This document shows positions 50,941-64,000 of a DNA stretch of 64,000 nt, one piece after another. A model generated the notes under the pieces. That model ran no database searches, was not told the origin of the DNA, and saw nothing but the letters and a program-made list of their open reading frames with translations. Source of the stretch: Candidatus Manganitrophaceae bacterium (GTDB lineage: Bacteria > Nitrospirota > Nitrospiria > SBBL01 > Manganitrophaceae). The DNA is taken from assembly GCA_016200325.1 (NCBI GenBank), contig JACQEZ010000007.1:248001-312000 (forward strand), in the 5' to 3' direction. A program made the translations under genes and the position numbers. How positions within the stretch are numbered: position 1 is the stretch's first letter; the number at the start of each line of letters is the position of its first letter.

Positions 50941-52011
50941 CTACTCCGGTAGCTTCGGCGGGGTGATCTTGAGCGGCTCACCGGTGAGGGCCTTGAGAAA
51001 TTCGACCAGATCTTTTTTGTCTTGGTCGCTCAGAAGGCTCAAGGGGGTGATCAACGGGTGACGGGGGGCGGTCGTCGGCTCCGCCTTCACATAGAATTCG
51101 ACCACCTCTTCCAGGGTTGCGAACTTTCCGTCGTGCATGTAAGGGGCGCTCTGTGCGACGCTGCGGAGGGTCGGTGTCTTGAACTGTTCCCGGTGGTCAT
51201 CATTTTGCGTGACGGCATACCGTCCCGGATCGATGGCGACCCCGGGCCTCCTCTGAAATCCCAACGCATGGAATTGATTGTCTGTAAAATTGGGGCCGTT
51301 GTGGCAGGTGACGCATTTGGCCTTTTCGTTGAAGATCCGGAGGCCGTGCAGCGCGGTCGGGGTGAGTGCGTTGTCGTCGCCCGCCATGTAGCGGTCAAAG
51401 GGGGAGTTGTTCGAAAGGATCGTCCGCTCAAACGACGCGATCGCCTGCGCGATCCCGTCGGCGGTCACGCCGGTTCCGAAAACGCTCCGAAAAGCGGCGA
51501 CATATCCCGGAACCGCGTTGAGTTTCTGTGTGAGGTGGTCTAACTCCTCTCCCATCTCGATCGGGTTTTGAATCGGTCCGAGCGCCTGCTCTTCGAGCGA
51601 TCCGGCGCGGCCATCCCAAAACTGAAATTTATTATAGGCGGCGTTGAAAATCGTCGGAGCGTTCCGGGCGCCGCGTTGCCCGCGAATGCCGGTTGCGACC
51701 GGCTGGCCGTTCGAGAATCCCAGCTCGGGGTTGTGGCAAGAAGCGCAGGAGAGGGTGTTGTCGCGAGAGAGCCGCGGATCGAAGAAGAGCACTTTTCCAA
51801 GCGCCACCTTGGCCGGCGTTTGCAAGTTGTAGGGAGGGATCGGAGGCGCCAGAAGGGGATGGAGGTTGAAGGGGGGATTGGGAAGGGTATCGAAGAGGGT
51901 CTCCGGCGGATATTTGTCGCTCTTCTTGGGGCGGGCATGGAGCGGTCCTTCCGATCCCAAAAAGAGAAATAAAAAAGCAATTAATCCGAAGAGCATCCAG
52001 CGGCGTTTCAT
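50941..52011 (-). CDS. Diheme cytochrome c peroxidase/MauG family protein
   Basis: A 356-residue periplasmic protein with a signal peptide (about 1-26) and two haem c sites, CASCH (89-93) and CVTCH (233-237). RNAPTIFNAAYNKFQFWDGR between them and SAPYMHDGKFATLEEVVEFY near the end are family hallmarks. Such enzymes reduce H2O2 or oxidise protein side chains. It stands alone between convergently and divergently placed genes. Peroxidase and MauG-like roles cannot be told apart here. Confidence 0.93.
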   Translation of the reverse strand: MKRRWMLFGLIAFLFLFLGSEGPLHARPKKSDKYPPETLFDTLPNPPFNLHPLLAPPIPPYNLQTPAKVALGKVLFFDPRLSRDNTLSCASCHNPELGFSNGQPVATGIRGQRGARNAPTIFNAAYNKFQFWDGRAGSLEEQALGPIQNPIEMGEELDHLTQKLNAVPGYVAAFRSVFGTGVTADGIAQAIASFERTILSNNSPFDRYMAGDDNALTPTALHGLRIFNEKAKCVTCHNGPNFTDNQFHALGFQRRPGVAIDPGRYAVTQNDDHREQFKTPTLRSVAQSAPYMHDGKFATLEEVVEFYVKAEPTTAPRHPLITPLSLLSDQDKKDLVEFLKALTGEPLKITPPKLPE

Positions 52012-52138
52012 TCTTTCAAAATATCCCTACGAAAAGAGTGGGGCCGATTATAAAAGCCGCTTGCCGTCTTGTCAAGGCAGAATCGTTGTCTGGGGAGAAC
52101 CGTAGAAGTAAGACGATCAGATGGACCTGGAGGGGTGT

Positions 52139-54271
52139 TTAAGAGGACGACATGCCTTTTTTCCCGGCGAGCAACTCCGTTATCTCTTTTGCCGGAAGCG
52201 GCCGGCTAAAGAAGTAGCCTTGCATGCCGTCGCATTTTAACGATTTGAGAAAGGCGAGCTGGTCGGCTGTCTCGACCCCTTCGGCGACGACCTTCAGCTT
52301 CAGACTGTGCGCCATGTTAATGATGGCGGTGGTGATGGCGGCATCATCGGGATCGGTGGTGATGTCGCTGACGAAGGAGCGGTCGACCTTTAGTTTGGAA
52401 ATCGGGAAGCGTTTTAGGTAGCTCAGAGAAGAGTAGCCGGTCCCAAAGTCGTCCACCGAAATTTGGATTCCCATCGTATTGAGCTCCAACAGGACCGAGG
52501 TGATGATTTCGAGCTTCTGCATCAAAATGCTCTCGGTCAATTCGAGCTCCAGATATTCCGCCCCGAGCCCGGTCTCGATTAAGATCCGGCGGACCGTCTC
52601 AATTAAGTTTCTCTGCTGGAACTGCTGTCCCGAGAGATTCACCGCCACCCGCATCGGAGGGAGGCCGGCCTGCTGCCATGCTTTGTTCTGGGCACAGGCG
52701 GTGCGGAGGACCCACTCTCCAATCGGGAGGATCAGTCCGGTCTCTTCGGCGAGCGGGATGAACTTCGCCGGGGAGATGAGACCTGATTCGGCCTGCTGCC
52801 AACGGACCAGCGCCTCGACGCCGACGATCGCGCCGCTGTTCAAATCGACCTGCGGCTGATAGTGGAGGAGGAGCTCGTCCCGCTCGAGCGCCTTCCGGAG
52901 GTTGTTTTCCATCGCGAGGCGCTCGGAGACCTTTGCATTCATCTCGGGGAGATAAAATTGATAATTGTTTCTCCCCTGTTCTTTGGCGCGGTAGAGGGCG
53001 GTGTCGGCATTCCTCAACAGCTTTTCGGCGCTGTCCCCGTCATTCGGATAAAGGCTGATGCCGATGCTGGGGGTGACGAAAAGCTCATGCCCCTCAATAA
53101 AGAAGGGGGTCATGAAAAGGTTGAGGATCCGTTGGACGACATAGGGGACATCCTGTGCCTGGGCGATGTCGGAGAGGAGCAGGGTGAATTCATCTCCGCC
53201 GAGGCGGGCGACCGTATCGTTTGGATTGCTTAAGCGGGCGACCGTATCGCTGCGGCGCAAACAGGTGGAGAGCCGCTCGGCGACCGCTTTGAGAAGAAGA
53301 TCGCCGATGCCGTGCCCCAAGGTATCATTGATTAACTTAAAGCGATCGAGATCGAGAAAAAGGACCGCGGACAAGCGTTGACGCCGCTTGGACGTCATCA
53401 GTGCAAGACGCAGATGGTCCATAAAGAGGGTCCGATTCGGCAGGCCGGTCAGGGAATCATGGCTGGCGAGATATTGGAGCCGCTCCTCGGAGAGTTTTCT
53501 ATCGGTAATATCGATGATGAATCCTTCCAGGGCCAACAGCGCTCCGCTCTGTGCATAAATTCCGATCCCTTGTTCCCAGACCCACTTTTCCTTTTTCGTC
53601 GCATCGACCATCCGATAGACCAATTTGAAAGAATGCTTCTCTTTGACGGCGGTTTTTTTATCCCCCTCCACCCTTTCCAGATCGTCGGGGTGAATCAGTT
53701 GGGCGAAGGAGGTTTTCATGTTTCCCGTCAGGTCGGCAGGCGCGTGGCCGGTGAGATCGAGGGCCCCCTCGCTGACGAACTCCATCGTCCAGTCGGGGTC
53801 ATACCGGCAGCGATAGGCCATTCCCGGCAGATTGCTCATCAGCGTCGCCAGCGCCCGCTGGCTCTCCCGCAGCGCTTCCTCCGCCCGTTTCCGCTCGGTG
53901 ATATTTTGTGCGAGAGAGATGATCCCCTGAATTTGTCCGGCCGAATCGCGCATGACCGAGCCGGAGATCGAGACCGGTATCTTTTTTTTCTCCTTGGAGA
54001 GGTAGGTGCTCTCGAAGACCCCCGGCCCGATTCCCTTGAACGGGGAGTCGTCGGCGAAGACCACCTCGATCGGCCGGCCGAGTAGTTCAGCCTCGGTATA
54101 GCCGAGCAGCTCGCAGGTGGCCCGGTTGACCGTCTTCATCGATCCATCCGGATCGATCACGATGAGGGCATTCATCATATGATCGATGATGGAATCGACA
54201 TAGTCTTTCCCGAGAGAGGGTCCTTTTGTTTCTGTCGGTACCGCTTCTTCTTTTCGGCTCTTTTTCTTCAC
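52139..54271 (-). CDS. PAS-PAS-GGDEF-EAL cyclic di-GMP protein
   Basis: A 710-residue cytoplasmic protein. PAS domains at about 25-130 and 145-260, then GGDEF domain (270-430) with an intact GGDEF at 358-362, and EAL domain (about 445-700) with EALVRW, an acid in VDDFGTGYSSL and the ELTESIL segment. Both halves look potentially active. Immediately before GGDEF the segment DTVARL is duplicated (342-347 and 352-357), a 10-residue insertion. No signal peptide or transmembrane helix. It may control the PilZ protein elsewhere in the window. Confidence 0.94.
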   Translation of the reverse strand: MKKKSRKEEAVPTETKGPSLGKDYVDSIIDHMMNALIVIDPDGSMKTVNRATCELLGYTEAELLGRPIEVVFADDSPFKGIGPGVFESTYLSKEKKKIPVSISGSVMRDSAGQIQGIISLAQNITERKRAEEALRESQRALATLMSNLPGMAYRCRYDPDWTMEFVSEGALDLTGHAPADLTGNMKTSFAQLIHPDDLERVEGDKKTAVKEKHSFKLVYRMVDATKKEKWVWEQGIGIYAQSGALLALEGFIIDITDRKLSEERLQYLASHDSLTGLPNRTLFMDHLRLALMTSKRRQRLSAVLFLDLDRFKLINDTLGHGIGDLLLKAVAERLSTCLRRSDTVARLSNPNDTVARLGGDEFTLLLSDIAQAQDVPYVVQRILNLFMTPFFIEGHELFVTPSIGISLYPNDGDSAEKLLRNADTALYRAKEQGRNNYQFYLPEMNAKVSERLAMENNLRKALERDELLLHYQPQVDLNSGAIVGVEALVRWQQAESGLISPAKFIPLAEETGLILPIGEWVLRTACAQNKAWQQAGLPPMRVAVNLSGQQFQQRNLIETVRRILIETGLGAEYLELELTESILMQKLEIITSVLLELNTMGIQISVDDFGTGYSSLSYLKRFPISKLKVDRSFVSDITTDPDDAAITTAIINMAHSLKLKVVAEGVETADQLAFLKSLKCDGMQGYFFSRPLPAKEITELLAGKKGMSSS
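53204..53249. repeat. 30-bp-offset tandem duplication inside the GGDEF domain
   Basis: GCGGGCGACCGTATCG at 53204-53219 recurs exactly at 53234-53249, an offset of 30 bases that keeps the frame and adds ten residues (SNPNDTVARL) right before the active-site motif. Confidence 0.85.
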
Positions 54272-54672
54272 GCGGGCCCCGGATAGAGAAGATAAAAACT
54301 CATATCAGCTCGGAATTCATGACCATAACCATATATGAATAGAGACTTCAATGGGACGGCAAGGGAGTGTCAAGCCGTTTTAATTTTACTACCAATTGCC
54401 TTTCTGTCAATTCTTCCCGCTTTCATATAGATAAGATAGATAAGAACGATGAGGAAGGATTCATCTCCGTCAGGAGCATCGGATTTTCGTCCGCCTTGCC
54501 GGAATGTATCGAGCCGTTCGGAACGGTCACCTTGAATCGGGGTCAATGCCGCAAGGAAAAAAGGGATGCGCGGACCGCTATATCATTTGACAATCTGGGG
54601 CTTTTCAAATAAAATGTTTGAATTTCAATCGGTTTGAATTTTCAGACTAAAAAATTTTTCAGAGGGACGCAG
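54272..54672. other. 401-bp divergent region upstream of the aspartate-family operon
   Basis: It holds the promoter at 54587-54615. A possible upstream TTG start in frame with the aminotransferase exists at 54634 but lacks a Shine-Dalgarno. No gene is visible. Confidence 0.5.
54587..54615 (+). promoter_or_regulatory. Strong sigma-70 promoter of the aspartate-family operon
   Basis: Perfect TTGACA (54587-54592), a 17-base spacer and TAAAAT (54610-54615), 57 bases before the GTG start of the aminotransferase. Confidence 0.8.
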
Positions 54673-55845
54673 GTGGAATTCCAACGGATTAAACGGCTGC
54701 CGCCGTATGTTTTTAATGTCGTTACGACGATGAAAATGGACGCCCGCCGGCGGGGGGAAGATATCATCGATTTCGGGATGGGAAATCCGGACCAGCCGAC
54801 CCCGGAACACATCGTCGAAAAGGCGATTGAAGCGCTCGAAAACTCAAAAAATCACCGCTACTCGGCCTCCAAGGGGATCACCAAGCTTCGGCTTGCGATC
54901 ACCGACTGGTATAAGCGGAATTACGGGGTGGCGCTCGATCCCGATTCGGAAGCGATCGTGACGATTGGCTCCAAAGAGGGGATCTCGCACCTCGCCCTCG
55001 CCACCATCGGTCCCGGGGATGTCGTGTTGGCCCCCAGCCCGACCTATCCGATTCATCCTTATAGTGTCATCATTGCCGGAGGAGAGGTCCGGTCGATCCC
55101 GCTTGCGCCGGGCCGCGATTTCTTCGAGGACATGACCTCCGCCTTTAAGCAGGCGTGGCCCCGCCCGAAGATGCTGATCATCAACTTTCCGCACAATCCG
55201 ACCACCCAGGTCGTGGACCTCGAGTTTTTTAAGAAGATCGTCGACTTCGCCCGCGACAATGAGCTCTTGGTCGTGCACGATCTGGCCTATGCCGATCTGG
55301 TCTTCGACGGCTACAAGGCGCCGAGTTTTCTCCAGGTGCCGGGGGCGAAGGAGGTCGGTGTCGAATTCTTCACCCTGTCGAAAAGCTATAACATGCCGGG
55401 ATGGCGTGTCGGCTTCTGCGTCGGCAACCGAGAGATGATTGGGGCGCTGACCAAGCTAAAGAGCTATCTCGACTATGGCATCTTTCAGCCGGTTCAAATC
55501 GCCGCGATCATCGCCCTCAACGGCCCGCAGGAGTGCGTCGGGGAGGTCGTCGAACTCTACCGCCGTCGCCGAAACGTCCTGGTCGACGGTCTCAATCGAA
55601 TCGGCTGGAAAATCGAGAAGCCGAAAGCGACCATGTTCGTCTGGGCGCAAATCCCGGAGGAGTTCCGAAAGATGGGATCTCTGGAGTTCTCCAAGCATCT
55701 TCTCACCGAGGCCAAGGTGGCGGTCTCGCCGGGAATCGGCTTCGGAGAGTACGGCGATGACCATGTCCGTTTTGCCCTCGTCGAGAACGAACATCGAACC
55801 CGTCAAGCGATTCAGGGGATCAAGAAAGTGTTGAAAGGGAAATAG
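54673..55845 (+). CDS. Class I aminotransferase (AlaC/LL-DAP aminotransferase-like)
   Basis: A 390-residue PLP enzyme. The Schiff-base lysine lies in [23 protein letters not shown] and [12 protein letters not shown] contact PLP, and FALVENEHR near the end has the carboxylate-binding Arg. I start at the GTG at 54673 with GAGGG upstream, giving [15 protein letters not shown], the usual N-terminus of this group. E. coli AlaC makes alanine from pyruvate; in aspartate-family operons such enzymes may transaminate aspartate or homoserine precursors. It is the first gene of an operon with hom and thrC. Confidence 0.92.
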
Positions 55846-55865
55846 TTGGATGAAGGCAGGAGACA

Positions 55866-55908
55866 GAAGTCAGAATCCAGAAGAACTGATTCTGACTTCC
55901 TGATTTTT
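55866..55908 (+). terminator. Hairpin with T-run between the aminotransferase and hom genes
   Basis: GAAGTCAGAAT (55866-55876) pairs exactly with 55889-55899 across a 12-base loop, then GATTTTTCT leads straight into the hom ATG. It looks like an attenuator-type terminator inside the operon, and no Shine-Dalgarno is visible for hom. The CAGAAGTCAGAAT wording is that of a simple-sequence intergenic repeat. Confidence 0.55.
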
Positions 55909-55910
55909 CT

Positions 55911-57227
55911 ATGAAGAAGTCCTCAATCAAAGTCGGAATCATCGGTTTCGGAACCGTCGCCAGCGGGGCGGTCCGGATTCTCATTGAGCAAAAAGAGCTG
56001 ATCCGCCGTCGGCTCGGCTGCCCGATCGAGATTGTTCAGATCGCCGACCTCGACATCCGACGAAGCCGGGGGATCCCCCTCCCCAAGGGAACCTTGACGA
56101 CCGATGCCATGAAGGTCGTGCGGCATCCAGAGATCGATATCGTCGTCGAGCTGATCGGAGGATATGATCCGGCGCGGCAGTTCATTCTCGAAGCGATCCG
56201 TCAGGGGAAACATGTCGTCACGGCGAACAAGGCGCTCCTGGCCGTCCATGGAGAGGAGATCTTTTCCGCGGCGGTGGAACGGGGGGTCGACATCGGCTTC
56301 GAGGGGAGCGTCGGCGGCGGCATTCCGATCATCCGCGCGTTGAAAGAGGGATTGGCCGCCGAGAAGATCGCGGCGATCTATGGAATCGTCAACGGCACCT
56401 GCAACTATATTTTGACGAAGATGACCGACGAGGGGAGGAAGTTCGCCGAGGTGTTGACCGAGGCGCAGCGGCTCGGCTATGCGGAGGCCGATCCGACCCT
56501 CGATATCGGCGGGGCCGACTCGGCGCACAAGCTGGCCGTTCTGACGGCCCTTGCTTTTGGGACCCCGGTCTCATTGAAGGAAATTTACACCGAGGGGGTC
56601 GACAAGGTCACGCCGCTCGACATCGCCTTCGCCGAAGAGTTCGGCTACAAGCTGAAGCTCCTGGCGATCGCAAAGCTGACCGGCGGCGAGATCGAGGCGC
56701 GCGTCCATCCGACGATGATTCCGAAGGAGTATCTCCTTTCCCGGGTCGGCGGTGTTTACAACGCCATCTATCTCATCGGCGAAGCGGTCGGCGAAGCGCT
56801 CTTCTATGGGCGGGGGGCCGGGAGCCTTCCGACCGGAAGCGCGGTGGTGAGCGACCTGATCGACATTTCCCGGAATATTTTGACGGGAGCCCATGGCCGG
56901 GTTCCGCCGGCGTCGTTTCGAGCCGACGCCCGCCCGGCGCTCCGGATCAAGCCGATGGAGGAGATCGAAAGCCTCTACTACCTTCGCTTTATGGCGGAAG
57001 ACCGACCGGGGGTTCTCTCCAAAATCTCCGGGGTGCTCGGAAAATACCGGATCAGCATCTCCTCCGTCATTCAGCAAGGAAGGAAAGCGGGAGGCAATGT
57101 TCCGCTGGTCATGATGACCCACCGGGCGCGCGAGAGAGATATTCAGGAAGCGCTCTCGAAAATCAACCGGATGGATTATGTTTCGGAGCCGACCGTGCTC
57201 ATTCGCGTGGAGGGAGAGGATGAGTGA
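55911..57227 (+). CDS. hom: Homoserine dehydrogenase
   Basis: A 438-residue oxidoreductase that reduces aspartate semialdehyde to homoserine. The NAD(P)-binding loop is GIIGFGTVASG near residue 10; EGSVGGGIPIIRALKEGL and GTCNYILTKM, plus an Asp-rich catalytic loop (EADPTLDIGGADSAHKLAVL), follow. An ACT domain of about 80 residues ends the chain, for threonine feedback. It overlaps thrC by 8 bases. Its ATG lacks a clear Shine-Dalgarno and follows a hairpin. Confidence 0.96.
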   Translation: MKKSSIKVGIIGFGTVASGAVRILIEQKELIRRRLGCPIEIVQIADLDIRRSRGIPLPKGTLTTDAMKVVRHPEIDIVVELIGGYDPARQFILEAIRQGKHVVTANKALLAVHGEEIFSAAVERGVDIGFEGSVGGGIPIIRALKEGLAAEKIAAIYGIVNGTCNYILTKMTDEGRKFAEVLTEAQRLGYAEADPTLDIGGADSAHKLAVLTALAFGTPVSLKEIYTEGVDKVTPLDIAFAEEFGYKLKLLAIAKLTGGEIEARVHPTMIPKEYLLSRVGGVYNAIYLIGEAVGEALFYGRGAGSLPTGSAVVSDLIDISRNILTGAHGRVPPASFRADARPALRIKPMEEIESLYYLRFMAEDRPGVLSKISGVLGKYRISISSVIQQGRKAGGNVPLVMMTHRARERDIQEALSKINRMDYVSEPTVLIRVEGEDE

Positions 57228-58308
57228 CATCCCGCTGAACAGACGTTTAGGAAGGGCTTGGCCCGGGATTGTCAAGGCCTATCGCGCCTTCTTGCCGGTC
57301 AGCGATGAAACGCCGATCATTACGCTCAATGAAGGAAACACGCCGCTCATCCCGGCCCCGCGACTGGCGGCCGCCATCCATGCCGAGATTGATCTTTATC
57401 TTAAATTTGAGGGGGCGAACCCCACCGGCTCCTTTAAAGACCGCGGGATGACGCTCGCCATTACAAAGGCGAAAGAAGCGGGGGCCAAAGCGGTCATCTG
57501 CGCCTCGACCGGAAACACGTCGGCCTCGGCCTCGGCCTACAGCGCGCGCGGTGGGATGAAGGCTTATGTCTTGATTCCGGAGGGGAAGATCGCGCTCGGG
57601 AAACTGGCCCAGGCGATGATTCACCGCGCCACGGTTATCCAGATCGACGGCAATTTCGACGAAGCGCTGGAGCTGGTAAAACAGGTGGCGGAGAAATATC
57701 CGATCACCCTCGTCAACTCGATCAATCCTTATCGGATCGATGGGCAGAAGACGGCGGCGTTTGAAGTCTGCGATCAACTCGGCGCGGCGCCGACCTACCA
57801 TTTTCTTCCGGTCGGAAATGCCGGCAACATCACCGCCTATTGGAAGGGCTATAAAGAGTATTATCAAGCCGGGAGCGTCTCATCGTTGCCGAGGATGATC
57901 GGTTTTCAGGCCGCCGGCGCCGCCCCGATTGTTCTGGGTCACATCGTCGAGAAGCCGCGCACCATCGCCACCGCCATCCGTATCGGCAACCCGGCGAGCT
58001 GGAAACTCGCGGTGGAAGCGGCCTCAGAATCGAGGGGAGAGATCAATCTGGTGACCGACGATGAAATCGTCGAGGCCTATCGAATGATCGCCGGTCTGGA
58101 GGGGGTCTTCTGCGAGCCGGCCTCCGCCGCCGGAGTGGCCGGTGTGATCAAGCTGAACAAGAGCGGTTTCTTCGGGAAGGGAGAGACGGTCGTCTGCACC
58201 CTGACCGGCCATGGGTTGAAGGACGCCGATTTTTCAATGAGTATTGCACAGAAGCCGACCACCATCAAGGCCCGCTTGGACGATGTCTTGAAGGTGTTGG
58301 GATTTTAA
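57220..58308 (+). CDS. thrC: Threonine synthase
   Basis: A 362-residue PLP enzyme converting O-phosphohomoserine to threonine. The PLP lysine is in NPTGSFKDRGM; the phosphate-binding loop is PVGNAGNITAYW, and CASTGNTSASASAY binds the cofactor. I start at ATG 57220, which overlaps the hom stop; a longer reading would extend inside hom. It needs a homoserine kinase, but no thrB is in the operon; the next gene is the candidate replacement. Confidence 0.97.
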   Translation: MSDIPLNRRLGRAWPGIVKAYRAFLPVSDETPIITLNEGNTPLIPAPRLAAAIHAEIDLYLKFEGANPTGSFKDRGMTLAITKAKEAGAKAVICASTGNTSASASAYSARGGMKAYVLIPEGKIALGKLAQAMIHRATVIQIDGNFDEALELVKQVAEKYPITLVNSINPYRIDGQKTAAFEVCDQLGAAPTYHFLPVGNAGNITAYWKGYKEYYQAGSVSSLPRMIGFQAAGAAPIVLGHIVEKPRTIATAIRIGNPASWKLAVEAASESRGEINLVTDDEIVEAYRMIAGLEGVFCEPASAAGVAGVIKLNKSGFFGKGETVVCTLTGHGLKDADFSMSIAQKPTTIKARLDDVLKVLGF

Positions 58309-58374
58309 CGCTTCTCAACTCCCGTTAGTTGAAGATGAGCGACAGTCTGCCCCCACAAACAGACTGAACCGTAG

Positions 58375-59598
58375 ATGAAGTATATCGTTTTGGTCGCGAA
58401 TGGAATGGCCGACCGCTCCCTCCCGGCGTTGGATGGGCGAACCCCCCTGGAGGCGGCGCGGACGCCCCATATTGATCTGTTGGCGGCCAGTGCGGAGATC
58501 GGACAGGTTCAAACGATCCCCGAGGGATTTATGCCGGGGAGCGATGTTGCAAATCTATCGATCCTCGGATATGATCCGCGTCAATTCTACCCGGGACGGG
58601 GCGCGCTCGAATCGGCCGGGATGGAGGTTCACCTGAACGAAGGGGATGTCGCTTTTTGCTGCAACCTGGTGACGCTTCGCGACCGTCAAAAGGAGTATGC
58701 CTTCTCGGAGCTGTCGCCTCGGGTCTTCTTGGAGGACCCTTCGGGCGGAGGCATCGAAGATGACGAGGCCCGGGAGCTGATCGACCTTCTGAATAATCTC
58801 CTCGGGAGCGACCAGATCCAGTTTTATGTCGGGAGGGGATATCGGCATCTGATGGTCTGGGCCCATGGGGCCGCGAAGGTGGAGTGCCTGCCGCCGCAGC
58901 GGCTCGTCGGCCGTGAGATCATCCCCTCTTTTCCCCGAGGGGCCGACAAGGGGATCCTAAAGAAGCTGGTCCAAAGTGTTTTCAGCATCTTGTCCGAGCA
59001 CCCGATCAATGAAGCGCGGATTGCCCGCGGGGAGCGGCCGGCCAATGCCGTCTGGTTTTGGGGGCCGGGAAAAGCGCGCACACTCCCCTCCTTCTCGGAG
59101 CGCTTTGCAAAACGGGGGGCGATGGTCTCCGCGGTCGATCTGCTCCGCGGTTTGGGGCGCAGGGCGGGGATGAAAGTGATTGATCTTCCCGGCGCGGCCG
59201 GAGGAGCCGACACCCCTCATGCGGGAGAAGTCGCTGCTGCCGACGGGGCGCTCAAGGCCCATGATCTGGTTTATCTCCACTTCCAGTCTTCTGATGAGGC
59301 CCGGCCTTCCGGAGACCCCCGGATGAAGGTCGAGGCGATTGAGCGCTTCGACGCGGAAATTGTCGGCCCGCTGCTTTCCCGACTGAAGGAGCGCGGCCCC
59401 TGGCGGCTCCTCTTGCTTCCCGACCATGCGACGCTCGTTTCGACGCGCGATCCGGTTGCCGATCCGGTTCCTTTCCTCCTTTGCCGCGGACTGGAAGGGG
59501 GACGGGAGGGGCGCTCTTTTTCTGAAAAGGAGGCGGCGCGCAGTTCGATCTTCTGGTCCGAAGGGCATCGTCTGATCGATTATTTCTTGAAAGGTTAA
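58375..59598 (+). CDS. Candidate homoserine kinase (cofactor-independent phosphoglycerate mutase-like, COG3635/TIGR02535)
   Basis: A 407-residue protein of the alkaline phosphatase superfamily, similar to archaeal-type phosphoglycerate mutase. In aspartate-family operons lacking thrB, this family (TIGR02535) is proposed to phosphorylate homoserine. The nucleophile Ser (MPGSD, S56) is kept, but metal sites differ from the usual pattern: NGMAD in place of DGMAD (N9), DEARPSGD (307-314) where DEAxHxGD is expected, and TRDPVADP (357-364) where a THxxDP motif is expected. It follows thrC and precedes lysC, so the pathway context is strong and the biochemistry unproven. Confidence 0.85.
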
Positions 59599-59603
59599 TT
59601 AAG

Positions 59604-60875
59604 ATGAGTTTGATCGTTCAAAAATTCGGCGGAACCTCCGTCGGAAACACCGATCGGATAAAAAATGTGGCGAAACGGGTGGCGCAGGCCCGGGCGGAGG
59701 GACACGATATCGTGGTCGTCGTCTCTGCGATGAGCGGGGAGACCGACCGATTGATCGGCCTTGCGCACCAGATTGCTTCCCTTCCCGATCAGCGGGAAAT
59801 GGATATGCTGATCTCCACCGGAGAGCGGGTGACGATTGCGCTGCTGGCAATGGCCCTCCAAGAGGTCGGGGTGGCGGCCCGATCGTTCACCGGACGGCAG
59901 GTCGGCATCTTAACCGACGGGGCCCACACCAATGCCCGGATCGAGCAGATCACGGCAGAGCGGTTGAGGGAAGCGTTGGCCGAGGGGAAGGTCCCGGTCG
60001 TCGCCGGTTTTCAGGGAATCAATCAACGATCGGATGTAACAACGCTGGGCCGAGGCGGCTCCGACACAACGGCGGTCGCATTGGCCGCGGCATTAAAGGC
60101 CGATCTCTGCGATATCTACACCGACGTCGACGGCGTCTACACCACCGATCCGAATATCGTTCCGAACGCACGGAAGCTGGCGCGAGTCTCCTATGAAGAG
60201 ATGCTGGAGATGGCAAGCCTGGGGGCGAAGGTGCTCCAGACCCGTTCGGTCGAGTTTGCAATGAAATATCAGGTTCCGGTTCGCGTTCGCTCGAGCTTCA
60301 ACGACAACGAGGGAACCCTGGTGACAAAGGAGGATCAGGAAATGGAGCAAGAGGTCGTCTCAGGGGTGACCTACGATAAAAACCAAGCCAAGGTCACCCT
60401 CCTCGGGGTGCCCGATCGGCCGGGAATCGCGTCCAAAATCTTCGGCACGCTGGCGCGGGAGAACACGGTGGTTGATATGATCATCCAAAATATCGGCCAG
60501 GGAGGAATGACCGACATCTCGTTCACCGTCCCGAAGGCCGATGCGCGGCGGGCCAAAGAAAATCTCACCAAGCTCGCCGAAGAGATGGGGGTGCAGGAGA
60601 TTCAGCTGACCGAAAACATCGCCAAGGTCTCGATCGTCGGGGTCGGGATGCGCTCCCACTCGGGGGTGGCGGCGAAGATGTTCTCCAGCCTGGCCGCGGA
60701 GGGGATCAACATCATGATGATCTCCACCTCTGAAATCAAGATTTCGTGCGTCATCGACTCCAAATACACCGAGCTGGCGGTCCGGACGCTGCACGATGTG
60801 TTCGAACTAAGCAAAGCACCGCCGCAAAAAACAGAAAAGGCCAAATCAAAGCCGGCCCGGCGGACCTCAAAATAA
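59604..60875 (+). CDS. lysC: Aspartate kinase
   Basis: A 423-residue kinase for the first step of the aspartate family (aspartyl phosphate). The substrate/ATP motif VQKFGGTSV begins the chain; STGERVT and [16 protein letters not shown] are catalytic-domain landmarks. Two ACT domains at the C-terminus (about 265-405) give lysine and threonine feedback. It lies 5 bases after the phosphoglycerate-mutase-like gene, with GAAAGG as Shine-Dalgarno. The C-terminal 15 residues are a basic tail. Confidence 0.97.
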
Positions 60876-60970
60876 ACAGTCGTTGCAGCCGATCAAGCGA
60901 CGAGATCATAACCCAGATCGAAAATCGAATAATAAAACATTTTCGAGGGCTGCAAGGACAGGAGTTTTAA

Positions 60971-62533
60971 ATGCGAATCGTTGAAATTTATGACACGACC
61001 TTACGCGACGGAGCGCAGTCGGAGGATGTCTCCTTCTCCGTCGAGGACAAGCTCCGGATCGCCCAGAAGCTCGATGAGCTCGGCCTGCACTATATAGAAG
61101 GGGGCTGGCCGGGGGCCAACCCGAAGGACATCCTCTTCTTCGAAGAGATGAAGCGGGTCCCGCTGAAGTCGGCCAAGCTGGTCGCATTCGGCGCCACGCG
61201 GAAGTCGAAAAACAAGGTCTCCAAAGATCCGAACATCAAAGCGTTGGCCGAGGCCGGGACCGAGGTGGTCACCCTCTTCGGCAAGAGCTGGGACCTGCAT
61301 GTCACCGATGCGCTGGGGATCACCCTGAAGAAGAACCTCGAGATCATCTCCGACTCCATCGCCTATCTCCGGTCTCAAGGGAAGCGGGTTTTTTACGACG
61401 CGGAGCATTTTTTCAACGGCTATGCGGCGCAGCCCGAGTATGCGTTGAAGACGCTCGATGCGGCCAAACGCGCCGGGGCGGAGTGTATTATCCTCTGCGA
61501 CACCAACGGCGGGACGATGCCATGGCAGTTGCGCGAAGCGCTGGAGGTTGTTCAGCGGGAGATCGGCGGGCCGCTCGGGATTCATACCCACAACGACTCC
61601 GAGATGGCGGTGGCGAACGCCTTGACGGCGATTGAATCGGGGGTGACTCAGGTACAGGGGACGATGAACGGCTTCGGAGAGCGTTGCGGAAATGCGAATC
61701 TCTGCTCGCTGCTCCCGAATTTAAAATTGAAGATGAAGATCAACTGCATCGCCGATGAGCAGCTCAAACGGTTAAGGGAGGTCTCCCACTTCGTCAGCGA
61801 GATCGCGAACCTCCCCCACAACAAACACCAACCGTATGTCGGCGACGCCGCGTTCGCCCACAAAGGGGGGATTCATGTCCACGCCGTCCGGAAAAAGGCG
61901 GAGACCTACGAACATATCGCCCCGAGCAAGGTGGGGAATCGACAGCGGGTGTTGATCTCCGACTATGCGGGGAAGAGCAATCTGCTTGAGAAGGCGAAGG
62001 AGTTTCGGATCCATCTCGCCAGCGACAGCCCGCACCTCAAAGAAATTCTTGAAACGCTCAAAGAGCGGGAGCACCAAGGATATCAGTTCGAGGGGGCGGA
62101 AGGTTCGTTCGAGCTGATGATGAAAAAGGCGCTCGGAAAGCACAAGCGATTTTTCGATCTCGTCGGATTCCGGGTGATCGTTGAGAAGCGCAAGGAGAGC
62201 GAGGAGACCCTCTGCGAGGCGACCATTATGGTGGCGGTCGCGGGCCAGGTGGAGCATACGGCGGCGACCGGAAATGGGCCGGTCAACGCCCTCGACCATG
62301 CCCTTCGAAAAGCGCTTGAAAAATTCTATCCGGCGCTCTCCGAGGTAAAGCTGCTAGACTACAAGGTCCGTGTCTTGACTGCCAGCGACGGCACTGGATC
62401 GAAGGTCCGGGTGTTGATCGAATCGGGGGACGGCGAGCGGACCTGGGGAACGGTCGGGGTCTCCGAAAATATTATCGAAGCCAGCTGGCAGGCGCTGGTC
62501 GATAGCATCGAATATAAACTGCTCACCCCCTAA
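60971..62533 (+). CDS. cimA: (R)-citramalate synthase
   Basis: A 520-residue enzyme that condenses pyruvate with acetyl-CoA to give citramalate, the start of a threonine-independent isoleucine route. The N-terminal TIM barrel has [17 protein letters not shown] with metal-binding Asp, and [12 protein letters not shown] plus [15 protein letters not shown]. The C-terminal regulatory domain (about 410-520) matches the LeuA dimer fold. AGGACAGGAG precedes the ATG. It is last in the operon, so the cell appears able to make isoleucine from threonine and from citramalate. Confidence 0.95.
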
Positions 62534-62674
62534 ACTTCGAATTCCCCGGGGGGAAGCGTCGGGGCGGAAAAGTCAACCGGCACGGCAGGGTCACGTGAGG
62601 AAAGAACGGTACATCATCGGTTGCAGGTTGATCGTGGCTCGGCCTATAATTTAGTCAATGAGGGGAATCGCTCC

Positions 62675-63559
62675 ATGCAGAGCTGGAATGTCAGGCTGAC
62701 CACGGTTTTTTCCGTCTTTATCGGGGCGATGGTTTTTTGCGCCTCCTGCAAGAAGGCGCCGACCCACGCCCCGGTCGCCACCTCCGCCCCCGATGTCGGT
62801 TTTCAGGAGATGGAGCCGGTCGGAGAGGTCCCTGCGCGCGAGCTCCTGATCACAGAGAAAGCATTCATCCGTGTGGCGAAGCGGGTGACGCCGGCGGTCG
62901 TGAACATCAGCACCGTCCACTTCGTTCGACACCCCGACGCCTCCCAGGAGAAGGGGCTGTTTAAAGATTTTTTCGGAGAGCTCTTCAAGAACCAACCCCG
63001 GCGTGAATTTCGCCAGAGGAGCCTCGGCTCCGGATTTATCATCAGCGACCAGGGCTATATCATGACCAACCACCACGTCATCGCAGAGGCCGACAAGATT
63101 ACGATTAAGCTCTCGGATCGACGGGAGTTCGTCGGGACTGTCGTCGGGAAAGATCCGAAGACCGACCTGGCGATCATCAAAATTCCGCCTCAGACCGATT
63201 TGCCGGTCGCCTCGCTCGGCGATTCGGGACACATCGAGGTCGGAGAATGGGCGATCGCCATCGGAAATCCTTTCGGACTCGACCGGACCGTCACCGTCGG
63301 GGTGATCAGCGCCACCGGGAGAACCGATCTCGGCCTGACCGATCAAGACAATTTCATCCAGACCGACGCCTCGATCAACTTCGGAAACAGCGGCGGTCCC
63401 CTCCTCAACGCAAAAGGAGAGGTCATCGGGATTAATACCGCCATCGTCGCGACCGGACAGGGAATCGGTTTTGCCATTCCGATCAACATGGCGAAGACGG
63501 TGGTGGAGGAGTGGATTGAGAAGGGAAACGTCAGCCAAGGCAGGCTTCTCGTGCATTAA
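62675..63559 (+). CDS. HtrA/DegP-type serine protease lacking PDZ domains
   Basis: A 294-residue periplasmic protease, probably lipid-anchored: the signal has a lipobox-like FCASC with Cys near residue 25. The catalytic triad is intact: H in TNHHVI, D in KTDLAIIK, S in FGNSGGPLL. The chain stops right after the protease domain (IEKGNVSQGRLLVH), where DegP, DegQ and DegS continue into PDZ. No PDZ-coding sequence follows in any frame. GAGGGG precedes the ATG. It may be a truncated or naturally PDZ-free enzyme. Confidence 0.87.
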   Translation: MQSWNVRLTTVFSVFIGAMVFCASCKKAPTHAPVATSAPDVGFQEMEPVGEVPARELLITEKAFIRVAKRVTPAVVNISTVHFVRHPDASQEKGLFKDFFGELFKNQPRREFRQRSLGSGFIISDQGYIMTNHHVIAEADKITIKLSDRREFVGTVVGKDPKTDLAIIKIPPQTDLPVASLGDSGHIEVGEWAIAIGNPFGLDRTVTVGVISATGRTDLGLTDQDNFIQTDASINFGNSGGPLLNAKGEVIGINTAIVATGQGIGFAIPINMAKTVVEEWIEKGNVSQGRLLVH

Positions 63560-63583
63560 TTCTTCCTCTCTGGAACAAAACAC

Positions 63584-63612
63584 TTGACATTATTGACAAC
63601 CTATTGTATTTT
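63584..63612 (+). promoter_or_regulatory. Sigma-70 promoter of the IHF/HU gene
   Basis: Perfect TTGACA (63584-63589), a 17-base spacer and TATTTT (63607-63612). It lies 80 bases before the ATG. Confidence 0.75.
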
Positions 63613-63692
63613 ATGGCCAATTTACGACCCCCTGGGGGGGGTTGAACTCTTCGAGAATCAATTCCGCGAGATCATCAAAGAGAGGGGCCGCG

Positions 63693-63974
63693 ATGAGAAA
63701 AGCCGATATAGCGAATGAGGTTTTTGAGAAGCTAGGAATCTCTAAGAAGGAATCGGCCGATATTCTTGAAGTGATTCTCAATTCAATTAAAGAGGTGTTA
63801 AAAAAAGGAGAGATGGTCAAGGTTGCCGGTTTCGGCAATTTCGTTGTCCGCAACAAAAGAGCCCGCAAGGGACGAAATCCAAAGACGGGTGAGGAGATCG
63901 GGATCACCCCTCGCCGGGTGGTCACCTTTAGGCCAAGCCAGGTCTTTAAAAAATTCGTCAACCAAAACCAATAG
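63693..63974 (+). CDS. IHF/HU family DNA-bending protein (IHF alpha-like)
   Basis: A 93-residue dimeric DNA-binding protein. The helical start KADIANEVFEKLGISKKESA, VKVAGFGNFVVR and the DNA-inserting arm GRNPKTGEEIGITPRRVVTFRPSQ (quoted in pieces: RNPKTGEEIGITPRR) match IHF alpha more than HU. Its ATG at 63693 has GAGGGG upstream; a longer reading exists but is unlikely. It may bend the sigma-54 promoter region elsewhere in the window. Confidence 0.92.
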   Translation: MRKADIANEVFEKLGISKKESADILEVILNSIKEVLKKGEMVKVAGFGNFVVRNKRARKGRNPKTGEEIGITPRRVVTFRPSQVFKKFVNQNQ

Positions 63975-63984
63975 GTGTGGGTCG

Positions 63985-64000
63985 ATGGACAAACTCTTTT
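63985..64000 (+). CDS. Start of a further gene (5' fragment), MDKLF...
   Basis: Five codons (MDKLF) after AGGTG, cut by the window end. The start and the position directly after an IHF alpha-like gene fit the MerR-family regulator commonly found there, but five residues cannot establish this. Confidence 0.3.

Follow-up and report, generated by a model that had tools for sequence, protein, structure and literature searches.

A phosphoglycerate-mutase-like protein with a decayed active site in the threonine operon of a Manganitrophaceae bacterium

Gene order and active site at the locus

The window, by which we mean the whole 64,000-nucleotide stretch of DNA analyzed, encodes at positions 58375-59598 an archaeal-type phosphoglycerate-mutase-like (aPGAM/ThrB2-like) protein of 407 aa, with an open frame and a decayed active site. 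The gene and all its neighbours lie on the plus strand. Profile matches together with context identified a PRK08175-type aminotransferase (54634-55845), which opens the conserved gene order, and the citramalate synthase gene cimA (60971-62533), which closes it. Between them, profile matches placed hom for homoserine dehydrogenase (55911-57227), thrC for threonine synthase (57220-58308, its start at 57220 being read from the sequence) and lysC for aspartate kinase (59604-60875), the last separated by 5 bases from the stop of the mutase-like gene. The location between thrC and lysC given in a preliminary description of this DNA was thus confirmed, and the gene sits among threonine genes, as TIGR02535 members do. 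An Rfam scan of window positions 52000-64000 returned no match at gathering scores. Further downstream, at 62621-63559, we noted a 312-aa HtrA/DegP-like serine protease ORF that ends shortly past the protease part; a PDZ part was not evident by eye, and the ORF is possibly shortened.

The window protein scored 437.2 bits against PRK04200 (cut-off 426) and 422.7 bits against TIGR00306 apgM (cut-off 320). Its score of 428.2 bits against TIGR02535, the proposed homoserine kinase, lay under the curated cut-off of 446.3. An AlphaFold2 model built with 29 sequences gave a confident fold (pLDDT 92.7, pTM 0.91), and the nearest solved structure was that of the aPGAM 2zkt_B (TMq 0.77).

Active-site residues were called from an alignment of the window protein with the solved aPGAMs 2zkt, 3kd8 and 3idd and with 27 family members outside the phylum. 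Four of the seven residues were retained: the nucleophile S56 (58540-58542), the site 1 ligand D307 (59293-59295) and the site 2 ligands D350 and H351 (59422-59427). The other three were replaced, with Asn for the site 2 ligand Asp at codon 9 (58399-58401) and Pro for the site 1 ligand His at both codon 311 (59305-59307) and codon 360 (59452-59454); the expected Asp or His was found at these positions in 51/51 comparison members. This alignment with characterised mutases and family members, which the preliminary description had proposed, bears out its observation of three altered ligand positions with S56 kept. The metal sites of C. elegans iPGM (site 1, D426/H430/H485; site 2, D37/S86/D467/H468), as given in PMC5382265, were transferred to the window protein by our own mapping, on which site 1 lacks two of its three ligands and site 2 one of its four. 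With both site 1 histidines (H311, H360) and one site 2 aspartate (D9) gone, two-metal phosphoryl transfer would be expected to fail, in line with the earlier proposal that a two-metal mutase should be disabled. Outside the metal sites, 37 of 44 other invariant positions were retained, and the retained core residues include R157, N212, R215, W227, W229, G232 and H302; H175, D176, R95, K285 and E304 were also lost. An assembly error is an unlikely cause of the replacements, since H360 is gone in five of the six genomes of the genus and H311 in one besides that of the window.

A search of the whole genome found one GHMP-type thrB over cut-off, at 215061-215972 of contig C8, which is not the contig of the window. 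It has a 307-aa frame and exceeded the cut-off in two models (202 vs 168.25 and 282 vs 194 bits). A GpmA mutase is encoded on contig C1 (389 bits vs a cut-off of 81.7), and the sole other PF01676 protein of the genome is DeoB. Both activities suggested by the possible names of the window gene are therefore covered, and judging from these genes, homoserine phosphorylation would be carried out by the GHMP ThrB and the mutase step by GpmA in this organism. The earlier statement that thrB is missing holds within the window but not for the genome, and the idea that a mutase-like protein has replaced ThrB was not upheld. A thrB elsewhere together with mutase activity had been named as grounds for rejecting that idea, and the thrB half of this was found on contig C8.

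Intact relatives and decay across the class

All seven active-site residues were intact in 51/51 members from outside the window's class (24/24 from chosen families of the phylum and 27/27 from other phyla). The former comprise one genome per family, taken from over the TIGR02535 cut-off, so that this set leans to intact copies; the latter were retrieved by patterns that did not contain the seven residues. Only one of the 24 non-class genomes of the phylum with an intact TIGR02535 member had a thrB over cut-off and 23 had none, which agrees with the complementary pattern in gut bacteria, where, according to PMC9026213, 278 of 300 ThrB2-bearing genomes are without thrB. As described in the GapMind paper (PMC7311316), the family member BT2402 is required for growth without threonine and does not complement E. 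coli thrB; on that account the kinase activity of even intact members stays a proposal.

We then surveyed 116 genomes, namely the window's own and its relatives, of which 85 carried the gene and 84 carried it in readable form; the counts exclude L065, which is truncated and contains unread letters, and G093, which has stops, as well as the duplicates L006 and L008. One or more of the seven residues were missing in 78 of the 84 readable copies, and which ones were missing varied by lineage, the nucleophile included. The six copies that retained all seven were those of G001, three genomes of family f11, one of f8 and one of f12. Within the genus, six copies showed four patterns: G001 was intact, G002, G004 and G005 lacked H360, G003 lacked H360 and had H311 deleted, and the window copy lacked three residues, while S56, D350, H351, R75 and N97 were present in all six. 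H360 and R75 were found in none of the 65 copies of f6, and S56 was missing in 21 of them; the three copies of f9 had none of the seven residues left. On a hom+thrC+lysC tree with 53 scored genomes, the minimum numbers of changes were 7 at D9, 7 at S56, 6 at H311, 9 at H351 and 4 at H360. Because f6 and f13 are sisters on this tree, they may have some of their decay in common. A match was present in 15 further class genomes, of which G302 (family f14) alone was read, and it was also broken (S56G, D350N). The G302 copy (L234) scored 468.8 bits, over the TIGR02535 cut-off, despite its Gly nucleophile and the Asn in place of D350; this cut-off is therefore no guard of the active site.

Since all 51 comparison members outside the class retain the seven residues, ligand loss is a trait of the window's class and not the working mode of TIGR02535. 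The earlier reading of the loss as a shift to homoserine phosphotransfer is contradicted by the same count, and by the window protein falling under the TIGR02535 cut-off. The observation made in the preliminary description is confirmed; its interpretation is partly supported but mostly not right.

The order thrC-gene-lysC was found in 40/40 loci read, and the frame was open in 84 of 85 gene copies. In the copy of G093 (L118) we noted four stops inside the gene, with the surrounding hom, thrC and lysC open. In eight close pairs in which both copies lacked S56, dN/dS was 0.046-0.131, above that of thrC in 8/8 and far below 1. Purifying selection after loss of the nucleophile was thus seen in 8/8 pairs of relatives, from which selection on the window copy is judged because its own dS is high (1.64-2.23). 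At a thrC identity of 0.65-0.70, the median identity was 0.38 for decayed copies (121 pairs) and 0.53 for intact ones (92 pairs). Constraint on the decayed copies is relaxed and still present, and positions such as N212, R215, W227, G232, H302 and D326 are nearly fixed in them. Over the 44 non-metal invariant positions, retention averaged 0.67 across 75 decayed copies (f1, f6 and f13) vs 0.58 over the seven active-site positions, and decay therefore reaches beyond the metal site.

Distribution of thrB and the missing kinase

The 32 class genomes with thrB comprised 20 in which the mutase-like gene was absent, eight in which it was broken and four in which it was intact. Among the 84 without thrB, the gene was absent in 11, intact in two, broken in 70 and interrupted in one (G093). 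Only eight of the 78 broken copies (f1, f9) fit displacement by ThrB; the other 70 belong to f6 and f13, to which this explanation cannot extend because they have no thrB over cut-off. ThrB together with an intact copy was found in three f11 genomes and in G001, so ThrB alone does not bring decay, and we dropped ThrB presence as a simple cause, given f6 and f13 without ThrB and f11 with ThrB and an intact copy. The twenty ThrB-bearing genomes without a copy indicate that the role of the protein, whatever its nature, is dispensable there.

The Neisseria-type thrB (TIGR00938) was over cut-off in 0/116 genomes, and in the 82 genomes of f6 and f13, which have decayed copies or none, neither known kind of homoserine kinase was over cut-off. 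These two families must therefore either rely on an unrecognised kinase or put the protein to a different use. The mutase-like gene is itself absent from ten f13 genomes, which favours an unrecognised kinase in f13. When GHMP domains were counted in 15 genomes, G112, G069 and G045 each showed a single GHMP protein, possibly IspE, and thus no sign of a hidden GHMP kinase in these three. To look for a substitute gene, we inspected the thrC-lysC interval in 12 genomes without the mutase-like gene: thrC stood directly before lysC in nine, and in the remaining three the contig ended at thrC, thrC and lysC were apart, or no lysC was nearby. In f6, the gene was retained in 65 of 66 genomes, and in the exception, G114, a close thrC was likewise not found. 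Another ThrC-like protein, sharing 37-40% identity with the ThrC of the window, was seen in 14/14 genomes searched and was the best match in G114. It is quite unlikely, in our estimate, that the metal-stripped protein of f6 still helps to make O-phosphohomoserine, either by chemistry other than the two-metal kind or by supplying the substrate-binding half in a two-partner kinase.

Interpretation and comparison with known systems

What we observed directly, namely the altered residues, the other genes of the genome, the conserved order, the selection in relatives and the repeated decay, is probably best explained if the protein is a pseudoenzyme maintained for a non-catalytic role within the threonine branch, ThrB and GpmA covering both steps. 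Pseudoenzymes are catalytically dead homologues retained for regulation, and the keeping of this gene in place among threonine genes despite its lost residues suggests a job other than catalysis. The protein would trace back to a phosphoglycerate-mutase homologue of archaeal type, for which homoserine kinase activity is proposed elsewhere in the phylum (TIGR02535, 'ThrB2'). With GHMP ThrB presumably phosphorylating homoserine and GpmA doing the mutase step, it would have been retained as a pseudoenzyme in a hom-thrC-X-lysC operon. Because the fold is retained along with much of the core outside the metal sites, we would guess that the protein can bind one of the pathway's ligands (homoserine, O-phosphohomoserine or threonine) and that it assists a neighbouring enzyme without catalysis, in a regulatory or structural capacity.

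Against the pseudoenzyme reading, four of the seven residues, the nucleophile included, remain in the window copy, and since asparagine is able to bind metal, residual one-metal activity is possible. The protein would then be an active phosphotransferase using site 2 (N9, S56, D350, H351), with a single metal bound there, Ser56 taking the phosphate and site 1 given up for a new substrate. The five residues shared by all six genus members fit such an enzyme, as does the window copy's conservation of 37 of the 44 other invariant positions. However, the genus has no common altered site (one of its six copies being fully intact), S56 itself was lost in other lineages, and the window copy also lacks H175, D176, R95, K285 and E304, so that we regard it as unlikely. 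That the gene is instead heading for loss, as a functionless relic of ThrB2 after a ThrB takeover, would be consistent with its evolving faster than the neighbour genes, with the stops in G093 and with thrC standing directly before lysC in nine of the 12 examined genomes without it. The open frames (84/85), the constant order (40/40 loci), the dN/dS of 0.05-0.13 in close pairs without the nucleophile and the retention of the gene in 65/66 f6 genomes, the exception also lacking a close thrC, make a relic improbable.

The names that the gene might be given were weighed against the same data. It is very unlikely that this organism uses the protein as its homoserine kinase and that ligand loss marks its change from a mutase, as the preliminary description had it: the operon position and the relatives in other phyla, which are proposed homoserine kinases (BT2402 being needed for growth when threonine is lacking, PMC7311316), speak for a kinase, but thrB is in the genome, the ligands are retained in 51/51 comparison members and the score is under the TIGR02535 cut-off. 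A glycolytic phosphoglycerate mutase, the name that automatic annotation would give on the PRK04200 score (437.2 bits vs 426), is extremely improbable with GpmA in the genome, the metal ligands lost and the gene in a threonine operon. Automatic names (phosphoglycerate mutase, homoserine kinase) are likely wrong for genes of this class.

A phosphoglycerate mutase gene beside that of aspartate kinase has been noted across bacteria, with no evident rationale, in the CoMetGeNe paper (PMC6327494). In the literature searched, active-site decay was not described for the mutase-like family, nor was a pseudoenzyme partner or regulatory effect. No paper searched linked Leptospirillum with homoserine kinase, and those that mention both Nitrospira and homoserine kinase appeared to be on other subjects. 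A biosynthetic active site that decayed along several lines of one class, in a gene still in its operon, offers a natural series on the origin of pseudoenzymes. The survey also exposes a gap, in that many genomes of the class have the other threonine-pathway genes and are without a known homoserine kinase.

The window protein resembles TIGR02535/ThrB2 proteins such as BT2402 in its full-length homology and threonine-operon position, but differs in scoring under the curated cut-off, in having lost three of seven active-site residues and in the presence of thrB in the genome; outside the class, the intact form accompanies the absence of thrB (thrB in 1/24 genomes), whereas the genome of the window has one. 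With archaeal cofactor-independent phosphoglycerate mutases (TIGR00306; 2zkt, 3kd8, 3idd) it shares the fold and a score over cut-off, but it lacks metal ligands, GpmA is present and its gene order is tied to threonine synthesis. Although its partner and regulatory effect are proposals, it is like pseudoenzymes in general in that catalytic residues are lost, fold, frame and gene order are kept, and purifying selection acts in its relatives.
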